The position numbers and the translations under genes were made by a program. This document shows positions 1-13,521 of a DNA stretch of 13,521 nt, one piece after another. How positions within the stretch are numbered: position 1 is the stretch's first letter; each line of letters starts with the position of its first letter. The notes beneath the pieces are model-generated. The model saw nothing but the letters and a program-made list of their open reading frames with translations, searched no databases and was not told the DNA's origin. The stretch comes from an uncultured archaeon (lineage in GTDB: Archaea; Halobacteriota; Methanosarcinia; Methanosarcinales; Methanoperedenaceae): contig CABMIA010000004.1 in the NCBI GenBank assembly GCA_902386085.1, positions 1-13,521 of the forward strand. Reading direction: 5' to 3'.

Positions 1-1635
1 GCGGTCATTTGCCGCATTCAGAACCCTGAACCTGTATGCTTTCTGCCCGACTGGTAGATATGGGTATAGATTACCATTGATCACAGGTGAGTCCATGAAA
101 GCTTCGGGAACTATAGACGGATTGGGCGTCCCGGGATTCACTGAGTTCTCCCATGGGGCAGTGACCGGATTATACAGCGGGTTTGGAACAGGCCCGGTTG
201 TCGGTGATAAAAATGGCCAGACCCATAGACTGTAGTCCCATCTGCCCATCGCGTTTGCACCACCGAATCCGGGAGCCGGGTTCTGGTTGGGCATGTAAAC
301 ATGCGGGAACCATAGATCCGACCTGCTCGCGTTGAGCGCAAAATTCCATGTGGGATCTTCGGCTGCCAGTTGTGCTGCCGACGGCAGGAAAGTTTTATCC
401 TGAATGACCAGTGGAATCCCGAGATCAGGAAGGACTCCCTGAGTAATAAGCGCCTGTTCTACGGGATCAATATTCAGGTAAGGTGCTGCCTCACCTGCGT
501 AGACATCGAGGCGTGTAAGGCCATAGGCGTGGTCGTGGTAGAACATCAGCCTGGCACTCTGCTGGTTGGTATAATAAAATGTCAGCGTTCCCAGGGGCTC
601 GCTTCCATTGTCCATGTCAGGAACATACCTCACACTGACACCTTTAGGATAGTCGGTGACTTCCCCTGCCGGGGTCGTCCACTGGTGCTGCGTCCCATCG
701 CTGATCCAGGGCGTGTTGCCTCCGTGCAGGTGAAGAGTAGCCCTGTTCTGGGTATAATTCGCGGATTTTGTCCCATTGGGGCCCTGCCCCGCTCCCATTA
801 CGGTTTCATCCGTCGGGAGGAAAAGGTCGCCTCCTGCGCCAGTGGGAAGGTAGTTTGTGAACTTGACGCGCACGGGTCTGTTCTGCTGGGATACGATCAT
901 AGGCCCGAGGTAATGGGGAATATCAGTGGCAAAGACCTGTCCACCGGTGGCGTTCATTATATTAGCGCCATTAGGGTATTTCAGGGCAATGTGCCTGCTG
1001 ACACCTGCGTTCTTTGCAGTCTCGATCTGTACGTAACCCCGCAATGTGGTCGGGTTCAGGTCGGAATGCATCTTCTCTGTATATTCTACAAGGCCGATCT
1101 CGTAATAATCTGACCCGGCATATGTTGTATTATCCGCAACTGCCAAGGGTATGTACTGCCCGAGGTTGTTTGCGCCAAGGGGTCCAAGACCCGGCAGCGA
1201 GTCGACGAATTTCCTGATACCGCCGGATACTGTTCCTCCCGCACCGATTACCGGGAGCGGGCTGTTGGCATAGTTGGGTGTCGTGCCAAAGTAGTCAGGC
1301 ATTCCACCCGGATTGAGTACAGGTACGCTTACTGGCGCTGCAGCACCGGATTCAGCACGTGCTGCTGCAATCTGATCTGCCGCCGCTTTCCTCTGTTCGT
1401 TCGTCGTTAATCTAAATCTTTTTGGCGGAGCAGTAACAGTCCCATCACTTGCATTCACAGTCTGCGTGTACAATGAATTGTATGTTGCACTGTCCATTGA
1501 TGTGCCGGCAGGATCGCTGGCAGCTTTTGCAACATTATTATTCCATATCATTATTGTGGACAATATTCCTATTGCTAGTAATATTCCTAAAAATACTAGT
1601 TTAGGTTTTTCCACTCCTTTATTTTTTTTCAACAT
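1..1635 (-). CDS. Large secreted multicopper oxidase, N-terminal part (cut by window edge)
   Basis: The 545 residues visible here read without interruption to the left edge, so the C-terminus lies outside. The N-terminus has a lysine-rich start, a hydrophobic stretch (residues about 13-30) and a likely signal-peptidase site after AKA (residue 38), so the protein is probably exported or anchored outside. The first cupredoxin domain carries both of its trinuclear-copper motifs: HLHG at 302-305 and YHDHAYGLTRLDVYAG from 366. The stretch VINGNLYPYLPVGQ (about 518-531), followed by YRFRVLNA, matches the second-domain entry of the CotA / bilirubin-oxidase / phenoxazinone-synthase-like branch. The type 1 copper and remaining trinuclear ligands would lie beyond the edge. 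The family couples one-electron oxidation of phenols, Mn(II) or other metals to O2 reduction; the substrate cannot be told here. The ATG at 1635 is chosen because AGGAGGG lies just upstream. Family sure; substrate and completeness unknown. Confidence 0.93.
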   Translation of the reverse strand, partial: MLKKNKGVEKPKLVFLGILLAIGILSTIMIWNNNVAKAASDPAGTSMDSATYNSLYTQTVNASDGTVTAPPKRFRLTTNEQRKAAADQIAAARAESGAAAPVSVPVLNPGGMPDYFGTTPNYANSPLPVIGAGGTVSGGIRKFVDSLPGLGPLGANNLGQYIPLAVADNTTYAGSDYYEIGLVEYTEKMHSDLNPTTLRGYVQIETAKNAGVSRHIALKYPNGANIMNATGGQVFATDIPHYLGPMIVSQQNRPVRVKFTNYLPTGAGGDLFLPTDETVMGAGQGPNGTKSANYTQNRATLHLHGGNTPWISDGTQHQWTTPAGEVTDYPKGVSVRYVPDMDNGSEPLGTLTFYYTNQQSARLMFYHDHAYGLTRLDVYAGEAAPYLNIDPVEQALITQGVLPDLGIPLVIQDKTFLPSAAQLAAEDPTWNFALNASRSDLWFPHVYMPNQNPAPGFGGANAMGRWDYSLWVWPFLSPTTGPVPNPLYNPVTAPWENSVNPGTPNPSIVPEAFMDSPVINGNLYPYLPVGQKAYRFRVLNAANDR

Positions 1636-1968: not shown

Positions 1969-3729
1969 TCACCCAGTAAAGTACATGGTTACCACGGTTA
2001 TTGCATCGAGTCTTATAATTATTCCGGCGAAATAGTCCGTGACCGCCTGGATTGCCTCGTTCCTCTCAATCCTGCCATCGTGGTTGCTGTCGTACCTTGT
2101 GAGTAAATCCCCACCTGTACCTGAGGTACCGGTAACGTTAATACTTGCAGTTCCCGATACCACCCCTGTGTTACCCAGGTCATCTTTGAAAGTACCGCTT
2201 ATCGGATAGGTTCCGTTGGTCAATGGCGCTGTCAGCGAATAATCTATCTCACCGCTGCCGATCTGGGTAAAGGTGTACAGGTTACCTGCGTGGATCACTC
2301 CCACCGCTGTCCCGATGAAAGTAAAACCCTGCGGGATTACCTCAGTTACCTGATAACCCGGCTGGTTAAAGACCGTGGAAGGCGAGGGTATCAGCGTGAT
2401 ATTCACCACATTTCCCTGCTGTACCGTGGAAGGCGAGATGCTTCTCGTCACACTTCCATTGCTGGGTTGTACCGATGCTACATTTACAATACGGCTTGCT
2501 GATGTGGCAGGAACGTTAGATCCTGAAACACTGACTGTGACGTTCATTGCCCCGGTGCCTGCCGCCTGTACGTTCCATGAAACCTGTGCCTGTGCGCCCG
2601 GAGCCAGATCCTCAACATGCTTAACCGAAGTCTCTCCAGGAACAAGTACCAGCCCCGATGGAATAACAAGAGAAGAACTTATATTCATCACTTCCATGGT
2701 TGCTGTGTTCTGGATGTAAGCAGTTATCGTAAATGCATCTCCAGATGTCACGTTTGTCGGCGATGATATACCCAGTGAAAGAATGCCCGGACTAACCGTT
2801 ACTCCGCCCAGACCATAGGCTGTGGAATACTCGACATTCCCGCCAGGCTGAATAACGACCGGGTTCCAGTAAACCGCAAACGCACTGTCCCCGTTGCGTA
2901 CACCCCATTGTACACTATAATTCCACGGTGCATCGTAGAGATGACGCCAGTTAGCCATAATGAATCTGTTCGGCGGGGATATGGATAGCGTTCCCTGGGA
3001 GAATATAGTCGGGCTTGACAGGGAATCGAATGCCTGGAAATAAGCCGGGACATCGCTGCCGTTAAATTCCCTCTCCGTGGTGACATCTCCCACGCCGGGT
3101 ACCTTGAAAGGCGCAGCATCGTTTGAGCCGAGCATCGTGTCAAACAAAAACCTGGCACCAGCACTGTGGGCGACACTGCCATAATTTACAAGAGAAACTT
3201 TAAACAGTGCAGTATCCTCCCTTCCTGTGGTGGAGCTGTTTGTGGGTAAAATTTTCTGGATAATGCCAATATCCCCTATACGCCATACTGTATATATCAC
3301 ATTGTCAGAAGATATCGGACCTGAAACCCTGTATGCATCCATGCTTGTCACTTTTGTATAATAATCAGTTCCATCGATCCTGACTGTCAGATACGAAGTC
3401 CACGGGGTGGCGGGATACCCGTATAAAAGTGCTTTATTGGCTGAGGTTGTGAGGTTCGGATCCCCTCCTGTTGTGCCCATAACGTATGTCCCGGGAGGGG
3501 CAACCACGATGCCTATATAACTATTTGTAACCTGGACAATATCTGTTCCCGGAGGGGGCGTTGCGGTCACAGTCGGTGCCGGCTCTGCGGCTGCAATACT
3601 GACCCCTGTTGACTGCGTTGTGGATGAGGCCGCATATGCACCCCCTGCCAGCAGCAGAAGCGCCAAAGTAATTATTCCAAATTCTATTCTGATGGGGCAT
3701 CCCCCATAGACACTTTTTTTTATACTCAT
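1969..3729 (-). CDS. Secreted surface protein with beta-sandwich domains and EF-hand/dockerin-like C-terminus
   Basis: 586 residues. A basic start and hydrophobic stretch (about 13-29) end in a likely cleavage site after AYA (33), followed by a Ser/Thr/Pro-rich linker to about 62. Residues about 63-310 form an unrecognised, beta-rich globular region. About 315-420 resembles a CARDB/adhesin-type Ig-like domain, and 425-535 (opening SVTRSISPSTVQQGN) a second beta-sandwich of the kind found in archaeal surface proteins with DUF11-like folds. The C-terminus (540-586) is one EF-hand/half-dockerin: DSNHDGRIERNE at 547-558 has the full set of Ca-binding positions, followed by two short helices ending YFTG. 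The same module occurs in both NosD-like proteins of this window. Several N-x-S/T sites suggest glycosylation. GGGGAGAT just before the ATG supports the start. Likely role: cell-surface binding or scaffold protein; ligand unknown. Confidence 0.85.
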   Translation of the reverse strand: MSIKKSVYGGCPIRIEFGIITLALLLLAGGAYAASSTTQSTGVSIAAAEPAPTVTATPPPGTDIVQVTNSYIGIVVAPPGTYVMGTTGGDPNLTTSANKALLYGYPATPWTSYLTVRIDGTDYYTKVTSMDAYRVSGPISSDNVIYTVWRIGDIGIIQKILPTNSSTTGREDTALFKVSLVNYGSVAHSAGARFLFDTMLGSNDAAPFKVPGVGDVTTEREFNGSDVPAYFQAFDSLSSPTIFSQGTLSISPPNRFIMANWRHLYDAPWNYSVQWGVRNGDSAFAVYWNPVVIQPGGNVEYSTAYGLGGVTVSPGILSLGISSPTNVTSGDAFTITAYIQNTATMEVMNISSSLVIPSGLVLVPGETSVKHVEDLAPGAQAQVSWNVQAAGTGAMNVTVSVSGSNVPATSASRIVNVASVQPSNGSVTRSISPSTVQQGNVVNITLIPSPSTVFNQPGYQVTEVIPQGFTFIGTAVGVIHAGNLYTFTQIGSGEIDYSLTAPLTNGTYPISGTFKDDLGNTGVVSGTASINVTGTSGTGGDLLTRYDSNHDGRIERNEAIQAVTDYFAGIIIRLDAITVVTMYFTG

Positions 3730-3924: not shown

Positions 3925-6900
3925 CTAGATTGCAGATGGGACGTTTCTTGAAACCGCCATCTTCATCTTTACATCCTCGACATCCCAATCCTTTACAAGG
4001 CCGCCCTTTACTTCGATATCCCTATCCATCACCAGCGACTTTGCCCTTATTTCGCCTGCTATGAAATCCTTTAGCCTTAAGACAAGTTCCAGTACCTTTG
4101 CGTCCCTGATTTCCACGAGCGCGTCAATCTCTTCTTCCACCGCAAGGTCAAGTTCCTTTCGCATATCCTGTATCCTTCTGATGACCTCGCGGGCATAACC
4201 TTCGGATTCGATCTCGCTTGTAAGCTCTGTGTCCACGTACACGTCCCCTGCCGAAAATGCTGCCTGCGCGATCGCGGGCGGAATTGTGTCCCTGAAGCTC
4301 ACCATATCTTCTGTGATGGTCCAGTTCCCAAGTCCGAAACTTCCAGCCTCTTTGATCGCCTGCTTAACTTTCCTTCCGTCTGCTTTCTTTAGCTCTGCTA
4401 TTACCCTGCCAGCTTCTTTTTTAAAAGCCGGGCCTATAGCTGCCGGACCAGGCACCACTTCAACGCCTAGTTCATTCCATGTCTCACCTGCGGCAAGCAG
4501 CACTATTTCCTTTGCATTGGTCTGTTCCTTTAACACGGATCCAAGGCTTTTTACAGCACCTGCGACCTCATCGTTCCTTGGTGCAACCACGATCCTTTTC
4601 ACAGGCCACCTGAGTTTTCTTTTCAATTTCTGCCTTGCATTGGAGGAAGCTTCCACGATTTCCCGGATGACACTCATCTGCATCTCAAGCCCTGTATCGA
4701 TGAACTCTTCATTCGGCACAACCCATTCGCACATGTGGACGCTCAAAGGCGCATCCGGATCAACATTCCTCACAAGATTCCGGTACATCTCTTCCGAAAT
4801 ATGCGGCGCAAAAGGCGCTATGAGCTTTGTCAGGGTGACGAGAACCTCATACAGGGTATAATACGCAGCCAGCTTATCGGGGTCATTTGCCTCGCGCCAT
4901 GTTCGCGGACGGATGAGCTGGATGTACCAGCGCGACAGGTCTTCAAGTATGAACTCTGAGATCGGCCGTGTGGCTTTATGGAGATTGTACTCGGAAATTG
5001 CATCATCCACCTGTTTTATGAGCGTCTGTATCCTTGAGAGGATCCACTTATCCTCGGGGCGCAGCGCCTCCGGGATTTCTTTCATCGCCTGGGGATCGAA
5101 GTTATCAATGATCATGTATGGTAGAGGGAAACGGTACACGTTCCAGAGGATATTCAGCATCCTGTGAACATTGCCAACCTCATCCCAGCTAAATTTGAGA
5201 TCTTCCCACGGGGCGTTTTGCGAAAGCACATAGAAACGCAATGCTTCTGCGCCGACCTTTGCCACCACCTCTTCAGGCGATACGACGTTGCCGAGGCTTT
5301 TTGACATCTTCTTGCCTTCGGTGTCAAGTGTGAAACCGTGCATCAGCACGCTCTTATACGGCGCCTTCCCGAACGCAATCATACCTGCGCCAAGCTGGGA
5401 ATAAAACCAGCCGCGCGTCTGGTCATGGCCTTCTGTGATGAAATCCGCAGGCCACCACTCTTTAAATGCTTTATCCTCATGGGGATAATTCAAAGTTGCC
5501 CATGATGCCACCGCGGAATCAAACCACACGTCAAAGACATCCGGAACCCGGCTCATCCGCGCGCCGCATTTGCATTTGATATGGATATTATCTACATTCG
5601 GCCTGTGCAGGTCGGGAAGCTTCGGTACACCGGCCCGTTTTTCAAGTTCAAATCTTGTTCCCATCCCTTCTTTTTCACCGCAGGATTCGCATATCCACAC
5701 CGGAATGGGAATTCCCCAGTATCTCTGGCGGGAAATGCACCAGTCGCGCGACCCGGCGACCCAGTCTGCAAACCGCGCCGAACCCGCCCACTCGGGGTAC
5801 CATTTGACTTTCGAAATCTCGTCCAGCATTTTTTCCTTCAGGTCAGTGACTTTCAAAAACCACTGTTCAGTGGCAAGAAATATGATCGGGGTCTTGCACC
5901 GCCAGCAGTGCCCGTACCTGTGTGAGATCTTGCCGCTGGCAAGGAGCAGGTTCCTGTCAGTCAGGTCATCAAGAACGACAGTATTTGCTTCCCTGACGTG
6001 CATGCCCCTGTATTCTCCCGCTTCTTCCGTATATCTGCCGTCCGGCCCCACGGGGCAGAATATCGGAAGGTTGTTTTTCATGCCAAGTTCAAAGTCATCT
6101 ATGCCATGGCCCGGCGCTATGTGAACGCATCCGGTATTCTCGGCTGTTACGAAATCAGCCATGAAAACATTATGCTTGAACTCCTTTTGTTTGGGTACTT
6201 TGTCACCCAGGGGATGCATATATTCAAGCTCTATATCCTCGCCAAGCACGGTTTCGAGTACTTCGTAGTCCTTGTACCTACCCTGTTTCAGGACGTTTGC
6301 CATAAGCGCCTCTGCCATTATCAGGATTTCTTCTTTGCCGTCCTTTACAACCCTGATTTTCACATACTCAAAAGACGGATGCACTGCCACAGCAATATTG
6401 GCAGGGATGGTCCAGGGCGTTGTCGTCCATATCACAATGAATGTGTTTTCCTCGTTTTTGAGCGGGAATTTTATATACACCGAAGGGTCGGTCTCATCCG
6501 CGTATTCCACTTCCGAATCCGCTATCGCAGTCTCGCATCTCGGGCACCAGTTCACCACGCGCAGCCCTTTTTCAAGAAGATTTTTTTCATGCGCCTGTTT
6601 CAGCGTCCACCAGGCAGCCTCGATATATTCATCGCGCAGCGTCATGTACGGGTCTTTCCAGTTAAGCCATACCCCGAGATTCTTAAACTGCGCAGTCATC
6701 TCATCCCGATGGGTTAGCGCAAACTCCTTGCATTTTGCCACGAAATTGCCCACACCGTATTTCTCGATATCCTTTTTTGATTTGAAGCCGAGCACGCCTT
6801 CAACCTTTACCTCGATGGGAAGGCCGTGCATATCCCATCCCGCGCGGTCAAGGACATGAAAACCGTTCATGGATTTGTAGCGCAGTATCGAATCCTTTAT

Positions 6901-7086
6901 TATCTTGTTCCATGCAGTGCCAAGATGTATCCGTCCAGTGGTATAAGGGGGGCCGTCCACGAAAAAGAACTTCTTGCCGTTCTTCCTGAGTTCCCTGACT
7001 TTAGAATAAGCATCTATTTCATCCCAGAATTTCTGGATTTCCTGGTCTATGAGTTTTGCATCGTATTGCGAAGCCTCTTTTAGCAT
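3925..7086 (-). CDS. ileS: Isoleucyl-tRNA synthetase
   Basis: 1053 residues, the usual length for archaeal/eukaryotic-type cytoplasmic IleRS. It charges tRNA-Ile with isoleucine using ATP. The class I signatures are in place: HLGT (the archaeal form of HIGH) at 54-57 in [13 protein letters not shown], and KMSKS at 593-597. The CP1 editing domain shows WTTTPWT (220-226) and [12 protein letters not shown] (321-332), with the aspartate used to clear mischarged valine. CxxC pairs occur at 181-184 (WCPRCE) and 394-397 (HCWRCK), and cysteines at 466-508 (CESCG, CKCG) suggest a further zinc site. The [20 protein letters not shown] and tRNA-binding C-terminal parts are intact. ATG at 7086 has GGAG 8 nt upstream. 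It sits alone between secreted-protein genes with its own gaps, so it is probably a separate transcript. Confidence 0.98.
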
Positions 7087-7208: not shown

Positions 7209-10200
7209 TCAGGTCTCGCTTGTTGGATCAGCCACCCTACCCATGAACAAGATCGTCCCGGTAGGCTTGTCGATAATGAAAAACAAGAACGGGTGGTCTG
7301 CACGAAATTCCGGGAAAACTTCAATTGCGGTAGCACCGACGATGACCGCTGTTGCAGCCGCGGCTTCAGTTCCGGTTTCATTCACATTTATGAAGGCTTT
7401 GTGATAGATGCCGGAGACGTATAATCCCCAGGTTGAATTGATCCCTGAAAAATCGGCGGCATCCGGATCAAATGCGTTTATCATTCCGAGCCCTTTTAGC
7501 AGGTCACTCATTTCTTTGGACTTCGTCATGCTGAACCTGGGAAGCCATACCTGCACCGGCTGGCGTACAAGCTTTGCGCGAATATCCGAGATTCCGGCGG
7601 ATGAAAGCCCTGCTTCAATTTCAGGAAGACTATGATTTTGATCCGGCAGCAGGATAAGCATCGACAGGTTATCCCCCTGATAATCCATTTCAAGAGCCTT
7701 TAATTCATTATCAGCGTAGTAAGATGCGTTCTCCGATTTTGAAAGGTGCATCATCGGAACGCTCACGTTCCTGGATTGAGAAACAAAAAAAGTAGCGTTC
7801 TGGGTGTCGCTCTTGTTAAATTGCTGCGCCCAGTTCCCGTTAAAATAGATTGCATTTACAATAACCAACCGCGTGAATGAATTAAGACCGCCGGATGGGA
7901 TTAAGTCAAGAATTTTGTTATTGGTTTTACCTGCCACCCAGTTGTTGATATTAGTTCGCTCTCCATCGGCATTATTAGCAAAATCCGCCTGCTGAGCCAA
8001 TGCATTGTAATAAGTTGAAAGAGCGCTTGAAAATTCCTGCCTGGAAGAAAAAGTTTTTTCAATCCAGATCGCGTTTGCGGTAGAAAGATTGTAACCAGTG
8101 TTATTCGCGTTAAGGCTGTTCAAAAGGCTTTGAAAACCCGCACGGTTGGCAGATGATTCGTTAGAAAGCCCCAGGACTTTACGCATCTCTTCCACAGTCT
8201 TGCCGCCAGCACCTTCCGCAGCCATTGACAAAGCGGTAGAGATCGAGAATGGTGAAAAGAAAAGATTGCCGGATTCGTTGCTCAGCACTGAATATGTTTT
8301 GAATGTGAAATCGTTGATGCTGATGGGGATGCTGGATGCATTGGTGCTCTGATACCCGCCGAAGTATGCCGTCACCACAGTAATGGCATTCTGTTTCGTT
8401 ATTATTCCGGCAAAGTAATCCATCACCGCTTGCACGGCTCCGCTTTTATGCACCCTGCCATCCTGGCTGGCATATCTTGAAATAATATTTTCACCTGGGG
8501 TAGCTTGTGGCTTGTATGCAAGCGGCAGATAGTCGATGTTGCTGGAATCAAGGATAAAAGGTGAATCGCATATTCCATTGTTATCCGCATCTGCGCAGGT
8601 CTGGCTGAAACCTGTGCCATTTGGATTAGCCCAGACATTGCCACCAAGATGAGAGCCGCAGATGATGTTAGTACCGGATGTGCGAGTGGTGTTCCAGGTG
8701 TTGTTGCCGTAAATACTAAAATTGTGGCTGTTATTGAAAAAGTTGTCATAGATGCTGTTGCTGTCGGAATACCACAGATAGATACCAAAGCCGTTGTTTG
8801 AGGCCGTATTGAAGCTCAGTGTGTTGTTGCTGGAATAATCCAGATTGATGCCGAATTCATTGTTCGAGGCATTTACATTTCGTATTATTGAACTTGTTGT
8901 ATTCCGGAAAAATATTCCTGCAGAATTCTTACTCAAATTCAAATCCATTATGGTTACATTTACACAACTGATGCAATAAAAAGTTGCAGCATTTGTGGAC
9001 GAATCATAAACAGCATTTTTTGAATTTTTTACATAATATATTGATTTTCTATCTGCCAGATTGCTAATGTCGATGCTGTTATTGAAATCCGAGTCATGAG
9101 TTCCATCTAAACCAAAATTTTTTTCGTTTACTGTCATTATATTGCCTGTAAGCGTATTGTAGCCTGAAGAGTATAGATAGATGCCGTAACCGTTGTTAGA
9201 AGCATTGTTACCGCTTAGCGTATTGTTGCTCGAAAAGTACAGATAGATACCATTGCCGTTGTTTGCAGATTTCACATTTTCTATTCTTGAGCGAGTAGTA
9301 TTCCAAAAAACCACCCCATATCCGTTTTTATTTAAATTCAGGTCTTTTACTGTTATATTTACGCAGTTTATGCAAAAGAAAATTCCAGCATTGGTAGATG
9401 AGTCATATATGGTATCTATAGCGTCTTTTATATAATATATGGGTTTTCCATCTACCAGATTACTTGTATCAATCTGGGCATCAAAATCTGAAAATGATAG
9501 CCCGTCCAGAACAAAATTATATTTATTTTCCGTCATTCTGTTATTTATTAGCGTATTGCTTTTGGAATAGTCCAGATGGATGCCGTAACGGTTGTTTGAG
9601 CCGGCATCATTTTCGTTCAACGTGTTGTTGCTTGAAAATTCTAGAAAGATGCCGTCATTGTCGTTCGAGTTAGCAATGTTACCGCTCAGCGTGTTATTGC
9701 CGGAACTGGATAGAAAGATTCCGAAATTATTGTTCGAGTTAGCAATGTTGCCGCTCAGAATGTTGTTACTGGAATGCCCCAGGAGGATGCCGTTATAGTT
9801 GTTCAGGTTAGCATTGTTACCGGTCAGCGTGTTGTTGCTGGAGGAGTACAGATTGATGCCATAATATGAGTTTGAGTTAGCAGTGTTTCCGCTAAGAATA
9901 TTGTTGCCGGAAGAGGACAGGATAATGCCGTCATGGTTGTTTGAGTTAGCAGTGTTTCCGCTCAGCGTATTGTTGCTGGAATCGGAAATAAAAATGCCGT
10001 AAATGTTGTTCGAAGCGTTGTTGCCACTCAAGGTGTTATTGCCGGATGAATCCTGAAAGATGCCGCCGTAATCGTTGTTAAAAGCATTGTTGCCGCTAAG
10101 CGTGTTGTTGCTGGAAAACCCCAGATAGATTCCGTTCCGGTTGTTCATTGATTTTACATTTTCTATTCTTGATCGAGTGGTATTCCAAAAAAACACTCCA

Positions 10201-11270
10201 TATTCGTTTTTATTTAAATTCAAGCCTTTTACTGTTACATTTACACAGTTTATGCAAAAGAGAATTCCAGCATTGGTAGAAGAGTCGTATACAGTATCTA
10301 CAGCGCCTTGCAGGTAAAAGATTGATTTTCCATCCACCAGATTACTTGTGTCAATCCGGTTATCAAAATTTGAAACTGATTGTTCAGGCAAACCAAAATT
10401 GTATTTATTTTCTGTCATTCTGTTGTTTATGAGCGTATTGTTGCCGGAGGAAGTTGACAGATAGATGCCATCCCGGTTGCTATAAGCGTTGTTCCCGATC
10501 AATGTGTTGTTGCCGGAATAGAGGAAGATTCCATAAGAGTTGTTCGAGGCGGTGTTGCCGGTCAGGTTATTGTTGTAATTGGAACCAGAGAGATCGAGTC
10601 CATAAGAGTTGTTTGAGGCAGTGTTGCCGGTCAGGGTGTTGTTGCCGGAATTATAGAGTTCGATTCCATAAGAGTTGTTTGAGGCGGTGTTGCCGCTCAG
10701 TGTATTGTTGCTGGATGAAAAAAGATAGATGCCGAAACCGTTAGAACCATAGTAATCATAATTCGAGTCAGCGTTGTTGCCGCGCAGCATGTTGTTGCTG
10801 GAAAATTCCAGAGAGATGCCAATAAAGTTGTTATAGGCATTGTTGCCGCTAAGCAGGTTGTTGTTTGAAGTGACCGTAATTCCGGCATTTGAGTAACCGC
10901 CTGCTCCAATCGCATTAAATCCATCCAATATAGTCCCGCCTGCAGAGAGCGTGATCGCACTGCTGCTTCCCACGGCATTCACAACGGGCTTCCCCCCGCC
11001 ATTATCAATTCCTCGCAGGATTAGCTGTTTGTTCACGTTCACGTTCTCATAATAAGTCCCGCTATGAACAAGGATTGTATCCCCGGCGCTCGCATTATCT
11101 ATCGCATCCTGTATTCTTATATAATTCGCGCCGTCGCTATCATCTACTGTAAGAGTCGCTGCACCTGCGCTGCCAGCAAGCAACCGAAGCGCCAGAATAA
11201 TTCCAACCCCTATTCTGAGGAAATATCTCTTACCAAAGTTGTTTGATTTCTTCATTACACTTTCATCCAC
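7209..11270 (-). CDS. Secreted NosD-type beta-helix / dockerin-like / serpin fusion protein
   Basis: 1353 residues in one open frame. A signal peptide (hydrophobic 19-32, likely cut after AGA near 37) is followed by a NosD-type right-handed beta-helix (about 38-855) with 22-23-residue rungs of the form NNTLSGNxAxNNxxGIxL. Residues 856-920 hold the NosD terminal part with the Ca-type loop DADNNGICD. Residues 927-972 are a half-dockerin-like module whose metal loop is degenerate (ASQDGRV). After a short linker (973-982) comes a whole serpin (983-1353), with NAIYFNGNW at 1139-1147, an inhibitory-type hinge ETGTEAAAAT from about 1298, and the C-terminal HPFLFFIIDKPTGTILFMG. Serpins trap proteases by insertion of the reactive loop; this one would act outside the cell. 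Many N-x-T sites suggest glycosylation. The GTG start at 11270 overlaps the upstream stop; an ATG at 11255 (five codons in) is at least as likely. Confidence 0.9.
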   Translation of the reverse strand: MDESVMKKSNNFGKRYFLRIGVGIILALRLLAGSAGAATLTVDDSDGANYIRIQDAIDNASAGDTILVHSGTYYENVNVNKQLILRGIDNGGGKPVVNAVGSSSAITLSAGGTILDGFNAIGAGGYSNAGITVTSNNNLLSGNNAYNNFIGISLEFSSNNMLRGNNADSNYDYYGSNGFGIYLFSSSNNTLSGNTASNNSYGIELYNSGNNTLTGNTASNNSYGLDLSGSNYNNNLTGNTASNNSYGIFLYSGNNTLIGNNAYSNRDGIYLSTSSGNNTLINNRMTENKYNFGLPEQSVSNFDNRIDTSNLVDGKSIFYLQGAVDTVYDSSTNAGILFCINCVNVTVKGLNLNKNEYGVFFWNTTRSRIENVKSMNNRNGIYLGFSSNNTLSGNNAFNNDYGGIFQDSSGNNTLSGNNASNNIYGIFISDSSNNTLSGNTANSNNHDGIILSSSGNNILSGNTANSNSYYGINLYSSSNNTLTGNNANLNNYNGILLGHSSNNILSGNIANSNNNFGIFLSSSGNNTLSGNIANSNDNDGIFLEFSSNNTLNENDAGSNNRYGIHLDYSKSNTLINNRMTENKYNFVLDGLSFSDFDAQIDTSNLVDGKPIYYIKDAIDTIYDSSTNAGIFFCINCVNITVKDLNLNKNGYGVVFWNTTRSRIENVKSANNGNGIYLYFSSNNTLSGNNASNNGYGIYLYSSGYNTLTGNIMTVNEKNFGLDGTHDSDFNNSIDISNLADRKSIYYVKNSKNAVYDSSTNAATFYCISCVNVTIMDLNLSKNSAGIFFRNTTSSIIRNVNASNNEFGINLDYSSNNTLSFNTASNNGFGIYLWYSDSNSIYDNFFNNSHNFSIYGNNTWNTTRTSGTNIICGSHLGGNVWANPNGTGFSQTCADADNNGICDSPFILDSSNIDYLPLAYKPQATPGENIISRYASQDGRVHKSGAVQAVMDYFAGIITKQNAITVVTAYFGGYQSTNASSIPISINDFTFKTYSVLSNESGNLFFSPFSISTALSMAAEGAGGKTVEEMRKVLGLSNESSANRAGFQSLLNSLNANNTGYNLSTANAIWIEKTFSSRQEFSSALSTYYNALAQQADFANNADGERTNINNWVAGKTNNKILDLIPSGGLNSFTRLVIVNAIYFNGNWAQQFNKSDTQNATFFVSQSRNVSVPMMHLSKSENASYYADNELKALEMDYQGDNLSMLILLPDQNHSLPEIEAGLSSAGISDIRAKLVRQPVQVWLPRFSMTKSKEMSDLLKGLGMINAFDPDAADFSGINSTWGLYVSGIYHKAFINVNETGTEAAAATAVIVGATAIEVFPEFRADHPFLFFIIDKPTGTILFMGRVADPTSET
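7212..8324 (-). other. Serpin domain of the fusion protein
   Basis: Residues 983-1353 (371) match the full length of a serpin core, from the helix A region (FTFKTYSVL, then NLFFSPFSISTALSMAAEGA) to the last strands. The hinge E-T-G-T-E-A-A-A-A-T fits the consensus of inhibitory serpins: Gly at P15, Thr at P14, small residues at P12-P9, Thr at P8. The loop then runs AVIVGATAIEVFPEF, about two residues longer to the conserved PF than in alpha-1-antitrypsin. The scissile bond therefore probably lies within GATAI. There is no basic P1, which argues against a trypsin-like target and for an elastase- or subtilisin-like one. The target is inference. Confidence 0.92.
8355..8705 (-). repeat. C-terminal module of the fusion, paralogous to 11266-11604
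   Basis: Residues 856-972 align with the last 113 residues of the upstream NosD-like protein, differing by a four-residue longer linker. They share WNTTRTSGTNII, the Ca-type loop, LDSSNIDYLPLAY and VHKSGAVQAVMDYFAGI. The DNA is also visibly similar, so duplication or gene conversion is recent or recurrent. Confidence 0.85.
8829..9161 (-). repeat. 333-nt beta-helix supermodule, copy C
   Basis: Encodes residues 704-814 of the fusion protein. It shares the plan of copies A and B: a rung, NxMTxNxxNF, a divergent Asp-rich stretch, IDxSNL, VYDSSTNA, the CISC pair at 766-769, then RNTTSS. It is the most diverged of the three. Confidence 0.8.
9228..9560 (-). repeat. 333-nt beta-helix supermodule, copy B
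   Basis: Encodes residues 571-681 with NRMTENKYNF, IDTSNLVDGK, YDSSTNAGI, the CINC pair at 633-636 and WNTTRSRIENVKS. It is very close to copy A at protein and DNA level and of identical length. Confidence 0.85.
9561..10109 (-). repeat. Array of 66-69-nt beta-helix rung repeats, second block
   Basis: Eight tandem rungs of 22-23 residues (388-570) of the form NNTLSGNTANSNxxxGIxLSSS. The DNA copies are similar enough for slippage or recombination to change the copy number. Nearly every rung opens with the N-glycosylation sequon NNT or a close variant. Confidence 0.85.
10110..10442 (-). repeat. 333-nt beta-helix supermodule, copy A
   Basis: Encodes residues 277-387 with NRMTENKYNF, IDTSNLVDGK, YDSSTNAGI, the CINC pair at 339-342 and WNTTRSRIENVKS. 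It is the first of three equal-length copies in the fusion protein. Confidence 0.85.
10443..10862 (-). repeat. Array of beta-helix rung repeats, first block
   Basis: About six rungs (residues 137-276). Three consecutive ones encode GNTASNNSYG almost identically in DNA at about 66-72-nt spacing (10540-10710). One rung carries an insertion rich in Tyr, Asp and Gly (about 168-180). Confidence 0.8.
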
Positions 11271-12390
11271 TAAAGTAAGCCATCACCACGGTGATGGCAT
11301 CCTGTCTTGTCAATATTCCTGCAAAATAATCCATTACCGCTTGCACAGCTCCGCTTTTATGCACTCTGCCATCGGATCCCGCATAACGGGAGACTACATT
11401 GTTGGATGACGTGTATGCAAGCGGAAGATAGTCGATGTTGCTGGAATCTAGCACGTAAGGTAAATCACATATTCCATCGTTATCCGCATCTGTGCAGTTC
11501 TGGCTGAAGCCTGTGCCATTCGGGTACGCCCAGAAGTTGCCACCGTAGTAAGGGCCTCCTATGATATTCGTGCCTGAGGTTCTGGTTGTGTTCCAGGTGT
11601 TGTTGCCACTCATGCCAAAATTGTCGGTATTGTTGAAGTAGTTATTATATATGGTGTTGTTGGAACCTCCGAGGATGATTCCTGCAGGGTTGTTCGATAT
11701 GACATTGCTGTTAAGGTCGTTGTTGTTGCTGGCCAGATTGAGCTCTATTCCTGCTGAGTTGTTCGATAGGATATTGCTGTTCAGGTGGTTGCCGCTGCTG
11801 GAAAACGAGATGGAGATTCCAAAGGTGTTCAAATTTGCTGCATTGTGGATAAGGTTGTTGTTGCTGGAATAGGAAAGCAAGATTCCTTCGGTGCTCAAGC
11901 TTGCGGTGTTGCCGGTCAAGTTATTGTTGTTGGAATTGCCGAGGGAGATTCCATTGAAGTAGTTCGAGCTCAGGGTGTTATTAGTTATGCTTCCGTTTTG
12001 GACATTGAAATAATAAATGCCAGAAGTGCAGTTCATAACCATCAAATTTTTGACAGTTACATTTGTGAGAGCAGTTGCTGAGTTAGAAACATAAACACCG
12101 TAAGTAAGTATTTCCTGCGGACAACCAATACACATTTGGGAATTCACCCCATCAATAGTATGTCCTGTGCCGTCAAAAACAACATTGCTTGATGTGATAT
12201 TAATGCATGTGCTGTCGGGACTGTTCATTATGCTTTGTGTAAGCACGTAAGTACCAGGCGAGGAAATCGTGGTGCAAGCGCTCATCGGCATCACTGCACC
12301 TGCGCCGCCAGCCAGCAACAGAACTGCCAGCACGGTGATTCCAGCCATTATTCCGAAGACATGCCCTTCGTTAATTTTATTCGCCACCAT
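11263..12390 (-). CDS. Secreted NosD-like beta-helix protein with dockerin-like C-terminus
   Basis: 375 residues. A signal peptide (hydrophobic about 11-29, likely cut after AGA at 32) precedes the NosD-type entry SSPGTYVLTQSI and VVFDGTGHTIDG. Parallel beta-helix rungs follow (about 90-255, N-rich, with NNNLTGNTA-like units). Then come the NosD terminal part with the Ca-type loop DADNDGICD and a half-dockerin-like module (about 331-375) whose metal loop is reduced to AGSDGRV. Its own cysteines (39, 54, 77, 80, 110 or nearby) suggest disulfides outside the cell. GGAGGT six nt before the ATG fixes the start. The stop lies inside the start region of the serpin fusion, so the two are an operon. 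Such proteins are usually surface carbohydrate-binding or structural proteins; despite the NosD name there is no link here to nitrous oxide reductase. Ligand unknown. Confidence 0.88.
   Translation of the reverse strand: MVANKINEGHVFGIMAGITVLAVLLLAGGAGAVMPMSACTTISSPGTYVLTQSIMNSPDSTCINITSSNVVFDGTGHTIDGVNSQMCIGCPQEILTYGVYVSNSATALTNVTVKNLMVMNCTSGIYYFNVQNGSITNNTLSSNYFNGISLGNSNNNNLTGNTASLSTEGILLSYSSNNNLIHNAANLNTFGISISFSSSGNHLNSNILSNNSAGIELNLASNNNDLNSNVISNNPAGIILGGSNNTIYNNYFNNTDNFGMSGNNTWNTTRTSGTNIIGGPYYGGNFWAYPNGTGFSQNCTDADNDGICDLPYVLDSSNIDYLPLAYTSSNNVVSRYAGSDGRVHKSGAVQAVMDYFAGILTRQDAITVVMAYFSG
11266..11604 (-). repeat. C-terminal module of the NosD-like protein, paralogous to 8355-8705
   Basis: Residues 263-375. 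It shares the NosD terminal part, the Ca-type loop and the dockerin-like module with the serpin fusion. Here the gene stops directly after YFSG, whereas the fusion continues from YFGG into the serpin. Confidence 0.85.
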
Positions 12391-12594: not shown

Positions 12595-13521
12595 TTATTC
12601 ACCATTTATCGTTTCAACTATTTCTCTAAAACCCTCAAGTCCGGCTTCTACATTTTCAATAATCTCATTTGCCAGTATATCCGGGTCAGGCAGGTTATCC
12701 AGATCAGCCAGGCTTTCATCTTTTACCCAGAAAATATCGAGATTTGTTTTATCCCGTGAAATTATTTCCTCATAGGTGGACTTTCTCCAGCGCCCATTCG
12801 GATTGTCCTTTGACCATGTTTCTGTTCTCTTGTGTCTGTTTTCAGGATTATAACATGTGATGAAATCTTTTAAATCCTCAAATTTCATCGTGTTCTCTTT
12901 TAGCGTGAAATGAACATTGGTACGAAAATCATAAATCCAAACCTCTTTCGTCCAGGGGTGTTTACTTGCGGGCTTATTATCAAAAAACAGGACATTTGCT
13001 TTTACACCCTGTTTATAAAAAATACCTGTAGGTAGTCTTAAAATAGTATGCAAATCCGTTGTTGCAAGCAGGTTTTTACGTACAGTTTCTCCGACACCTC
13101 CTTCAAACAGTACATTATCAGGCAGGACAACAGCAGCGCGCCCGTCTGATTTCAGGAGTGTATGAATATGCTGCAGGAAGTTTAACTGTTTGTTGGAAGT
13201 AGTTACCCAGAAATCCTGGCGATTATAAACAAGTTCTTCTTTTTCCTGTGTGCCTTCTTCATTTGTGAAAGTCATGCTGCTTTTTTTGCCAAAAGGAGGA
13301 TTGGTCAGCACATAATCATAACGGACGCCCGAATCGGATATGAGTGAATCCGTTGAGGATACATGAGATTCGCCGTCAATCTCGCCAATATTATGAAGGA
13401 ACATATTCATGAGGCACATTCTTCTTGCTCCTGCAACAATCTCATTTCCCGAAAAGGTCTTATTTTTGAGAAATTCTTTCTGCTCAGTATTTAAATTGTA
13501 ATTCCTGGGATTGCTTAAGAA
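12595..13521 (-). CDS. hsdM: Type I restriction-modification DNA methyltransferase subunit, C-terminal part (cut by window edge)
   Basis: 308 residues are visible and the frame stays open to the right edge, so the N-terminus lies outside. The piece starts within the N6-adenine methyltransferase core: GARRMCLMNMFLHNIGE, then the catalytic motif IV NPPF in YDYVLTNPPFGKKSS. It goes on through the conserved LLKSDGRAAVVLPDNVLFEGG, RLPTGIFYKQGVKANVLFFD and WIYDFRTN segments to the end typical of HsdM. HsdM with HsdS methylates adenine at a bipartite target and protects it from HsdR cleavage. No hsdS or hsdR follows, so partners would be upstream, beyond the edge, or elsewhere. No internal start is accepted; an ATG at 13419 lies inside the domain. 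Confidence 0.95.
   Translation of the reverse strand, partial: FLSNPRNYNLNTEQKEFLKNKTFSGNEIVAGARRMCLMNMFLHNIGEIDGESHVSSTDSLISDSGVRYDYVLTNPPFGKKSSMTFTNEEGTQEKEELVYNRQDFWVTTSNKQLNFLQHIHTLLKSDGRAAVVLPDNVLFEGGVGETVRKNLLATTDLHTILRLPTGIFYKQGVKANVLFFDNKPASKHPWTKEVWIYDFRTNVHFTLKENTMKFEDLKDFITCYNPENRHKRTETWSKDNPNGRWRKSTYEEIISRDKTNLDIFWVKDESLADLDNLPDPDILANEIIENVEAGLEGFREIVETINGE

Follow-up and report, generated by a model that had tools for sequence, protein, structure and literature searches.

Introduction

PinA of Clostridium thermocellum is reportedly a cellulosomal dockerin-serpin, the cellulosomal serpin of Piromyces E2 is said to be a dockerin-serpin as well, and among archaeal serpins Pnserpin, Tkserpin and aeropin are single-domain proteins. 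The available part of one report lists a Doc-Serpin in Ruminococcus flavefaciens, mentions such serpins also in C. thermocellum and R. albus, and carries the suggestion that dockerin-serpins shield the cellulosome from proteolysis (PMC5301203). An excerpt of another credits Pnserpin and Tkserpin with potent inhibition of subtilisin and chymotrypsin; in it, many prokaryotic serpins are proposed to have intracellular housekeeping roles, and the functions of archaeal serpins are called enigmatic (PMC8233489). Within the limited literature searched, we found no paper covering both Methanoperedens and a serpin.

Here we describe an archaeal gene in which a serpin is joined to a long beta-helix and a small EF-hand-like module. 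We favor, with a probability of about 0.58, a real lineage-specific fusion in Candidatus Methanoperedens whose product would be an exported protease trap, the lipid tether of related serpins having been swapped for a stalk and a tag. Similarly to the dockerin-serpins (PinA, Doc-Serpin ZP_06142906 of R. flavefaciens and the Piromyces E2 protein), it places a serpin beside a small module in a putatively exported protein; in contrast, those carry real dockerins and reside in cellulosomes, whereas this one has a module that is not a Pfam dockerin, a long beta-helix and a methanotrophic archaeon as its host. The archaeal fusion resembles dockerin-serpins in its logic, then, and not in membership. 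Pnserpin, Tkserpin and aeropin are archaeal serpins like that of the window and differ, by description only, in being single-domain. The housekeeping roles outlined in the excerpt cited above count against an outside role for prokaryotic serpins in general, but the architecture described here would not fit an intracellular housekeeping role.

One frame encodes a beta-helix, an EF-hand-like module and a complete serpin

The window (the whole stretch of DNA that was analyzed, 13,521 nucleotides) is the entire 13.5-kb contig C4 of a MAG of 207 contigs that is 63.6% complete. The fusion gene occupies 7209..11270 on the minus strand and, as the sequence-only reading had claimed, is one frame of 1353 codons with zero stops from GTG 11270 onward. 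ATG 11255, which yields 1348 amino acids, is the likelier start because GTG 11270 sits among the 3'-terminal codons of the gene upstream, and the signal peptide comes directly after this ATG; residues are nonetheless numbered throughout on the 1353-aa product from GTG 11270. A break had been feared near 8355, but the frame is continuous there, with similarity in the same frame on either side.

The export signal noted earlier was recognized by eye as a Sec-type signal peptide, MKKSNNFGKRYFLRIGVGIILALRLLAGSAGA (11160..11255, minus strand; residues 6-37). It ends in LLAGSAGA and lacks a lipobox Cys, so that the protein does not qualify as a lipoprotein serpin. It is followed by a region of right-handed parallel beta-helix with a C-terminal tail of NosD type (8496..11159, minus strand; residues 38-925), in which the last NosD stretch stops at residue 885. 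The fusion protein matches NosD (PF05048, E=2.5e-95), Beta_helix (PF13229, E=1.2e-67; 226.9 bits against a cut-off of 25.9) and TIGR03804 (15 stretches; 337.3 bits against a cut-off of 19.45), repeats that it has in common with NosD and other parallel beta-helix proteins, from which it differs by the attached serpin. The beta-helix of NosD type, put at ~820 residues in the sequence-only reading, was thus borne out at a length of about 850 residues. NosD maturation factor proper was ruled out (TIGR04247, 181.4 bits against a cut-off of 300). Three YDSSTNA..CIxC blocks lie inside the beta-helix region. The stalk had also been described as sequon-rich, which did not hold: residues 1-936 contain 33 N-X-S/T sites against a mean of 35.3 in 500 shuffles, reflecting an Asn-rich composition only. 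In serpin residues 984-1353, 12 such sites were counted against 5.6 on average in shuffles.

The serpin domain (7224..8312, minus strand; residues 987-1349) is complete, in agreement with the earlier claim: PF00079 aligns with residues 985-1349 over profile positions 3-370 of 370 (E=4.7e-120; 401.6 bits against a cut-off of 27), and the closest PDB sequence is Serpin B3 (2zv6, E=1.5e-73). Inhibitory serpins share a hinge consensus with Glu at P17, Gly at P15, Thr at P14 and small residues at P12-P9. These consensus residues are present in the window serpin as ETGTEAAAATAV, within the hinge and reactive-centre loop ETGTEAAAATAVIVGATAIEVFPEF (7305..7379, minus strand), and the hinge is therefore of the inhibitory type that had been proposed. 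Counting 15 residues past the hinge Gly would place P1 at a Thr, and the bait presented by the serpin would be GTEAAAATAVIVGAT-AIE. Among 41 archaeal serpin frames, the window's included, the GTEAAAAT hinge is identical in 36 and changed by one residue in the other 5, and the sequence past the hinge varies, which would fit inhibitors that do not share one target. We infer from these residues that the fusion serpin would inhibit proteases covalently. A structure model of the module-serpin part has a pLDDT of 35.

The module recurs in this genome and is EF-hand-like rather than a dockerin

Between the beta-helix and the serpin lies a module of 47 residues (8355..8495, minus strand; residues 926-972), which the sequence-only reading had called dockerin-like. 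Further copies were found within the window at 1972-2115 and 11266-11406, and a profile built from the three window copies gave 18 matches in this MAG. A larger set of 17 copies draws 16 from this MAG and one from genome G008, leaving aside a partial match on contig C9 and a fragment. Canonical copies have a single EF-hand-like loop; in the fusion copy this loop is degenerate, being one residue short and lacking both the first Asp and the last Glu. EF-hand_1 is matched by 10/17 copies and Dockerin_1 by only one (E=0.12), whereas the fusion copy matched none of the Pfam families. Likewise, the best 60 of 93 PDB matches to the 17-copy profile contained no dockerin; they were EF-hand proteins, aligned across the loop (best E=1.1e-4). 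The likeness to one EF-hand loop thus stood, the dockerin assignment did not, and we call the module an EF-hand-like tail. Type I dockerins (PF00404) have two calcium-binding loops. As a candidate, type I dockerin was rejected for the fusion copy, which has no profile match and one EF-like loop, not two.

At least 16 other proteins of the MAG carry the module, most of them C-terminally and one as a partial match; they are encoded at the two further window sites given above and on contigs C45, C8, C137, C11, C34, C31, C115, C175, C86, C201, C93, C88, C62 and C9. Pfam was run on 10 of 15 further module-bearing proteins (9 of this MAG, 1 of G008); nine have domains, mostly extracellular (beta-helix, PKD, fn3, cupredoxin, metallophosphatase with Ig-like, LVIVD propeller, S-layer with TPR), and one has none. 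A signal peptide is apparent by eye in several module proteins; some are truncated or begin at an uncertain position. In one of the set, on contig C137 (L105, G000:C137), the module is internal, as it is in the fusion, and is combined with an S-layer domain (PF07752), TPR repeats and a PPC domain.

The position of the module within proteins bears on a two-in-one precursor, in which the beta-helix would serve to export the serpin and cleavage in the Ser/Thr/Asn linker (residues 973-986) would free it in soluble form. Thirteen of the 18 matches lie within two residues of the protein end, which makes the point just before the linker a natural end. Another four, however, are internal with more sequence behind them (the fusion, C137 with its S-layer/TPR protein, C34 and the partial match on C9), the last of the 18 being a fragment of 15 residues, and no processing site was identified in the fusion. 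We regard such a precursor as improbable.

We considered at this point whether the module is a true dockerin that plugs into a cohesin at the cell surface. ANME archaea are reported, in the part of the source available, to be rich in dockerin and cohesin proteins (PMC9012536). This MAG does encode one cohesin (PF00963, E=3.4e-10; 225 aa; G000:C165:9672-10109, recorded as L096 and L118) with a signal peptide and a putative anchor tail, made of a hydrophobic stretch after APGF and then basic residues, which we take to resemble a PGF-CTERM anchor or archaeosortase signal. A frame near this cohesin gene looks by eye like another beta-helix gene. Against docking stand the degenerate single loop of the fusion copy, the Pfam and PDB results given above and the distribution of the two partners: cohesins occur in 17/31 genus genomes and the module in 3/31 by the 17-copy profile (this MAG, G008 once and G016 weakly, E=1.3e-4), and G008 has the module but no cohesin. 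Since cohesins are common in the genus and the module is nearly absent there, the pairing is unproven, and cohesin-dockerin docking seems to us a poor prospect. The narrower profile, built from the three window copies, has matches in 11 of the 392 phylum genomes, among them this MAG and G008.

Less improbable, though still tentative, is that the lineage possesses a surface-display system of its own, in which the module would be the attachment tag and the serpin would have been recruited as a trap guarding the tagged coat or matrix. The many module-bearing proteins of this MAG, set beside the near absence of the module from congeners, form the backdrop of this reading.

Serpins seen in relatives carry no beta-helix, and most have a lipobox-like signal

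We determined how serpins are built in related genomes. A serpin match was found in 2/31 genus genomes, the window's own and Fe_173 (G014), in 33/185 order genomes and in 97/392 genomes of a phylum sample, the latter two samples overlapping. The sister species Fe_173 has two stand-alone serpins, 81-82% identical to the window serpin, each with a VLFSGC lipobox and a Thr/Pro-rich spacer. In a tree of 41 rows, the window serpin and both Fe_173 copies form one clade (100/100) on a long stem, the deeper position of which is unsure because long branches meet there.

Apart from the fusion, the longest serpin frame reaches 464 aa among the order genomes and 862 aa in the phylum sample. Inspection by eye of all 8 other frames of at least 551 aa (phylum search) found no beta-helix, and in 6 of them the extra length is an upstream open frame ahead of a lipobox signal; frames shorter than 551 aa were read in part only. 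Overall, no relative's serpin frame was seen with a beta-helix in the 392 phylum and 185 order genomes, so that among the serpins of relatives examined the beta-helix is confined to the window protein, as the suggestion of a rare architecture implied. The sequence-only reading had named separate serpin and beta-helix genes in relatives as a reason to doubt the fusion, and separate they are, as far as we looked. To us this points to a fusion particular to the lineage and not to a mistake, given the uninterrupted frame, the relatives that either half has in the lineage and the purifying selection on the serpin. The latter was estimated (NG86, 381 codons) against the two Fe_173 genes, with dN/dS of 0.109/0.699 and 0.110/0.797, or ~0.16 and ~0.14; between the Fe_173 pair the ratio is 0.24. 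By these ratios selection on the serpin is purifying, over a measured branch that may partly predate the fusion.

The same ratios weigh on a real but idle fusion, i.e. a recent read-through with a serpin that is hitch-hiking or non-inhibitory. Its occurrence in one genome only would suit this scenario, but the hinge and the full serpin length have been kept with no stop or change of frame, and dN/dS is 0.14-0.16, which makes an idle serpin unlikely.

By automatic scan, 30 of the 40 other serpin frames have a lipobox-like signal. The 40 frames derive from loci L002-L037, without L008, which a stop interrupts and which was too short for the length limit. Among the 10 frames without a match, 4 reach the edge of the fetched stretch, 5 lack a lipobox and one (L022) has a lipobox that the scan pattern missed. 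As most related serpins examined bear a lipobox-like signal, a serpin at the surface would not be new, only its tether. The lipoprotein serpins of Fe_173 and other Halobacteriota share with the window serpin the hinge pattern and, in Fe_173, the clade and the identity given above; they differ in carrying a lipobox and a short spacer, the place of which is taken in the window protein by a beta-helix and a module. Elsewhere in the phylum, in another family, two serpins (L009 and L010, from G358 and G319) have an N-terminal membrane helix by eye and additional N-terminal sequence, that of L009 without a Pfam match. Several partial or stop-bearing serpin matches were present in G382 and G173, where serpin genes may be decaying.

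The joint lies between the module and a linker

The module and the serpin are separated by the linker YQSTNASSIPISIN (8313..8354, minus strand; residues 973-986), and the joint falls at or near 8354/8355. Local similarity to both Fe_173 serpins begins at residue 973, the first past the module; in a second local search it begins 1-2 residues later (query positions 14 and 15 instead of 13). In a multiple alignment, the linker pairs without gaps with the Fe_173 spacers QYSTSNVSISNSIN and QSSSANVSITNSIN, with 7/14 and 6/14 residues identical. The likeness is weak and consistent with a shared spacer; for the same reason the exact breakpoint is unsure. No in-frame start codon ahead of the serpin is followed, by eye, by a clear signal peptide, so that export of the serpin should depend on the upstream part.

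The upstream neighbor (11263..12390, minus strand) encodes a 375-aa beta-helix protein whose C-terminus is formed by the same module (11266-11406), with a stop codon behind it. The 3' third of this gene has 77% DNA identity to the pre-serpin part of the fusion (310/405 aligned columns). The simplest history consistent with these alignments would be that a beta-helix gene was duplicated, its stop was lost and a serpin domain was gained in frame.

The isoleucyl-tRNA synthetase gene ileS (3925..7086, minus strand) links the contig to Methanoperedens or its closest relatives. It is 79-87% identical to ileS in 28/30 other genus genomes and 79-80% to that of two genomes from another genus in the family; beyond the family, identity does not exceed 68%. 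The archaeal host supposed earlier was accordingly recovered, with ileS of Methanoperedens type, and by this gene the contig is assigned to Candidatus Methanoperedens, a methane-oxidizing archaeon.

These data bear directly on an assembly chimera, in which the assembler would have joined a beta-helix gene to a separate serpin gene. The fusion is known from a single instance, in the assembled sequence of one contig of a fragmented MAG, and no serpin frame of relatives was seen with a beta-helix, all of which a chimera would explain; misassembly keeps some weight since the contig measures 13.5 kb in a 207-contig, 64% complete MAG. However, the joint is in frame, with a complete module finishing on one side of it and the pre-serpin spacer on the other, and the 14-mers of 8320-8390 have no second occurrence within the window. 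Furthermore, the serpin identity to Fe_173 is like that of ileS to the same genome (82%), which fits the lineage, and 17 further module matches (partial match and fragment included) were obtained in this MAG. We therefore hold a chimera to be unlikely, and the fusion is probably a real feature.

A model for the origin and role of the fusion

For the lineage-specific fusion that we favor, the following course can be proposed. An exported beta-helix protein ending in the short tail module would have lost its stop and become joined in frame, at or a few residues from the module end, to a serpin gene of the lipoprotein-signal type found in the sister species. The serpin would thereby have lost its own signal peptide, lipobox cysteine and Pro/Thr-rich spacer, and would now be exported via the signal peptide of the beta-helix. 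The beta-helix could act as a stiff stalk displaying the serpin away from the cell, and the module, common to many proteins of this genome, may keep the fusion protein on or inside the cell envelope or matrix. There the C-terminal serpin would bait an outside serine protease, perhaps of subtilisin or elastase type, and trap it covalently.

The serpin on a stalk looks like a real change, with no second case so far, in the way an inhibitor of this sort is tethered on the outside of the cell. If true, archaeal serpins can act outside the cell with an exchangeable tether, and a methanotroph offers a parallel to the cellulosomal dockerin-serpins. With a serpin in 2/31 genus genomes and a strong expansion of the module, this genome is unusual among its kin. 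This raises the questions of which outside proteases threaten anaerobic methane-oxidizing archaea and what structure the module-tagged proteins form.

Contig neighborhood

The beta-helix and serpin genes were present in none of the ileS neighborhoods of 8 relatives, and synteny thus lends no support to the fusion. A third module-bearing protein is encoded at 1969..3729 (minus strand), with its module at 1972-2115 and a canonical EF-hand-like loop. Both contig ends cut genes on the minus strand. At window 1-1635 lies a truncated multicopper-oxidase-like protein (Cu-oxidase_3 and PhsA, both below cut-offs), and at the opposite end, 12595-13521, a truncated N6 DNA methylase (PF02384, E=8.9e-44; hsdM-like below cut-off).
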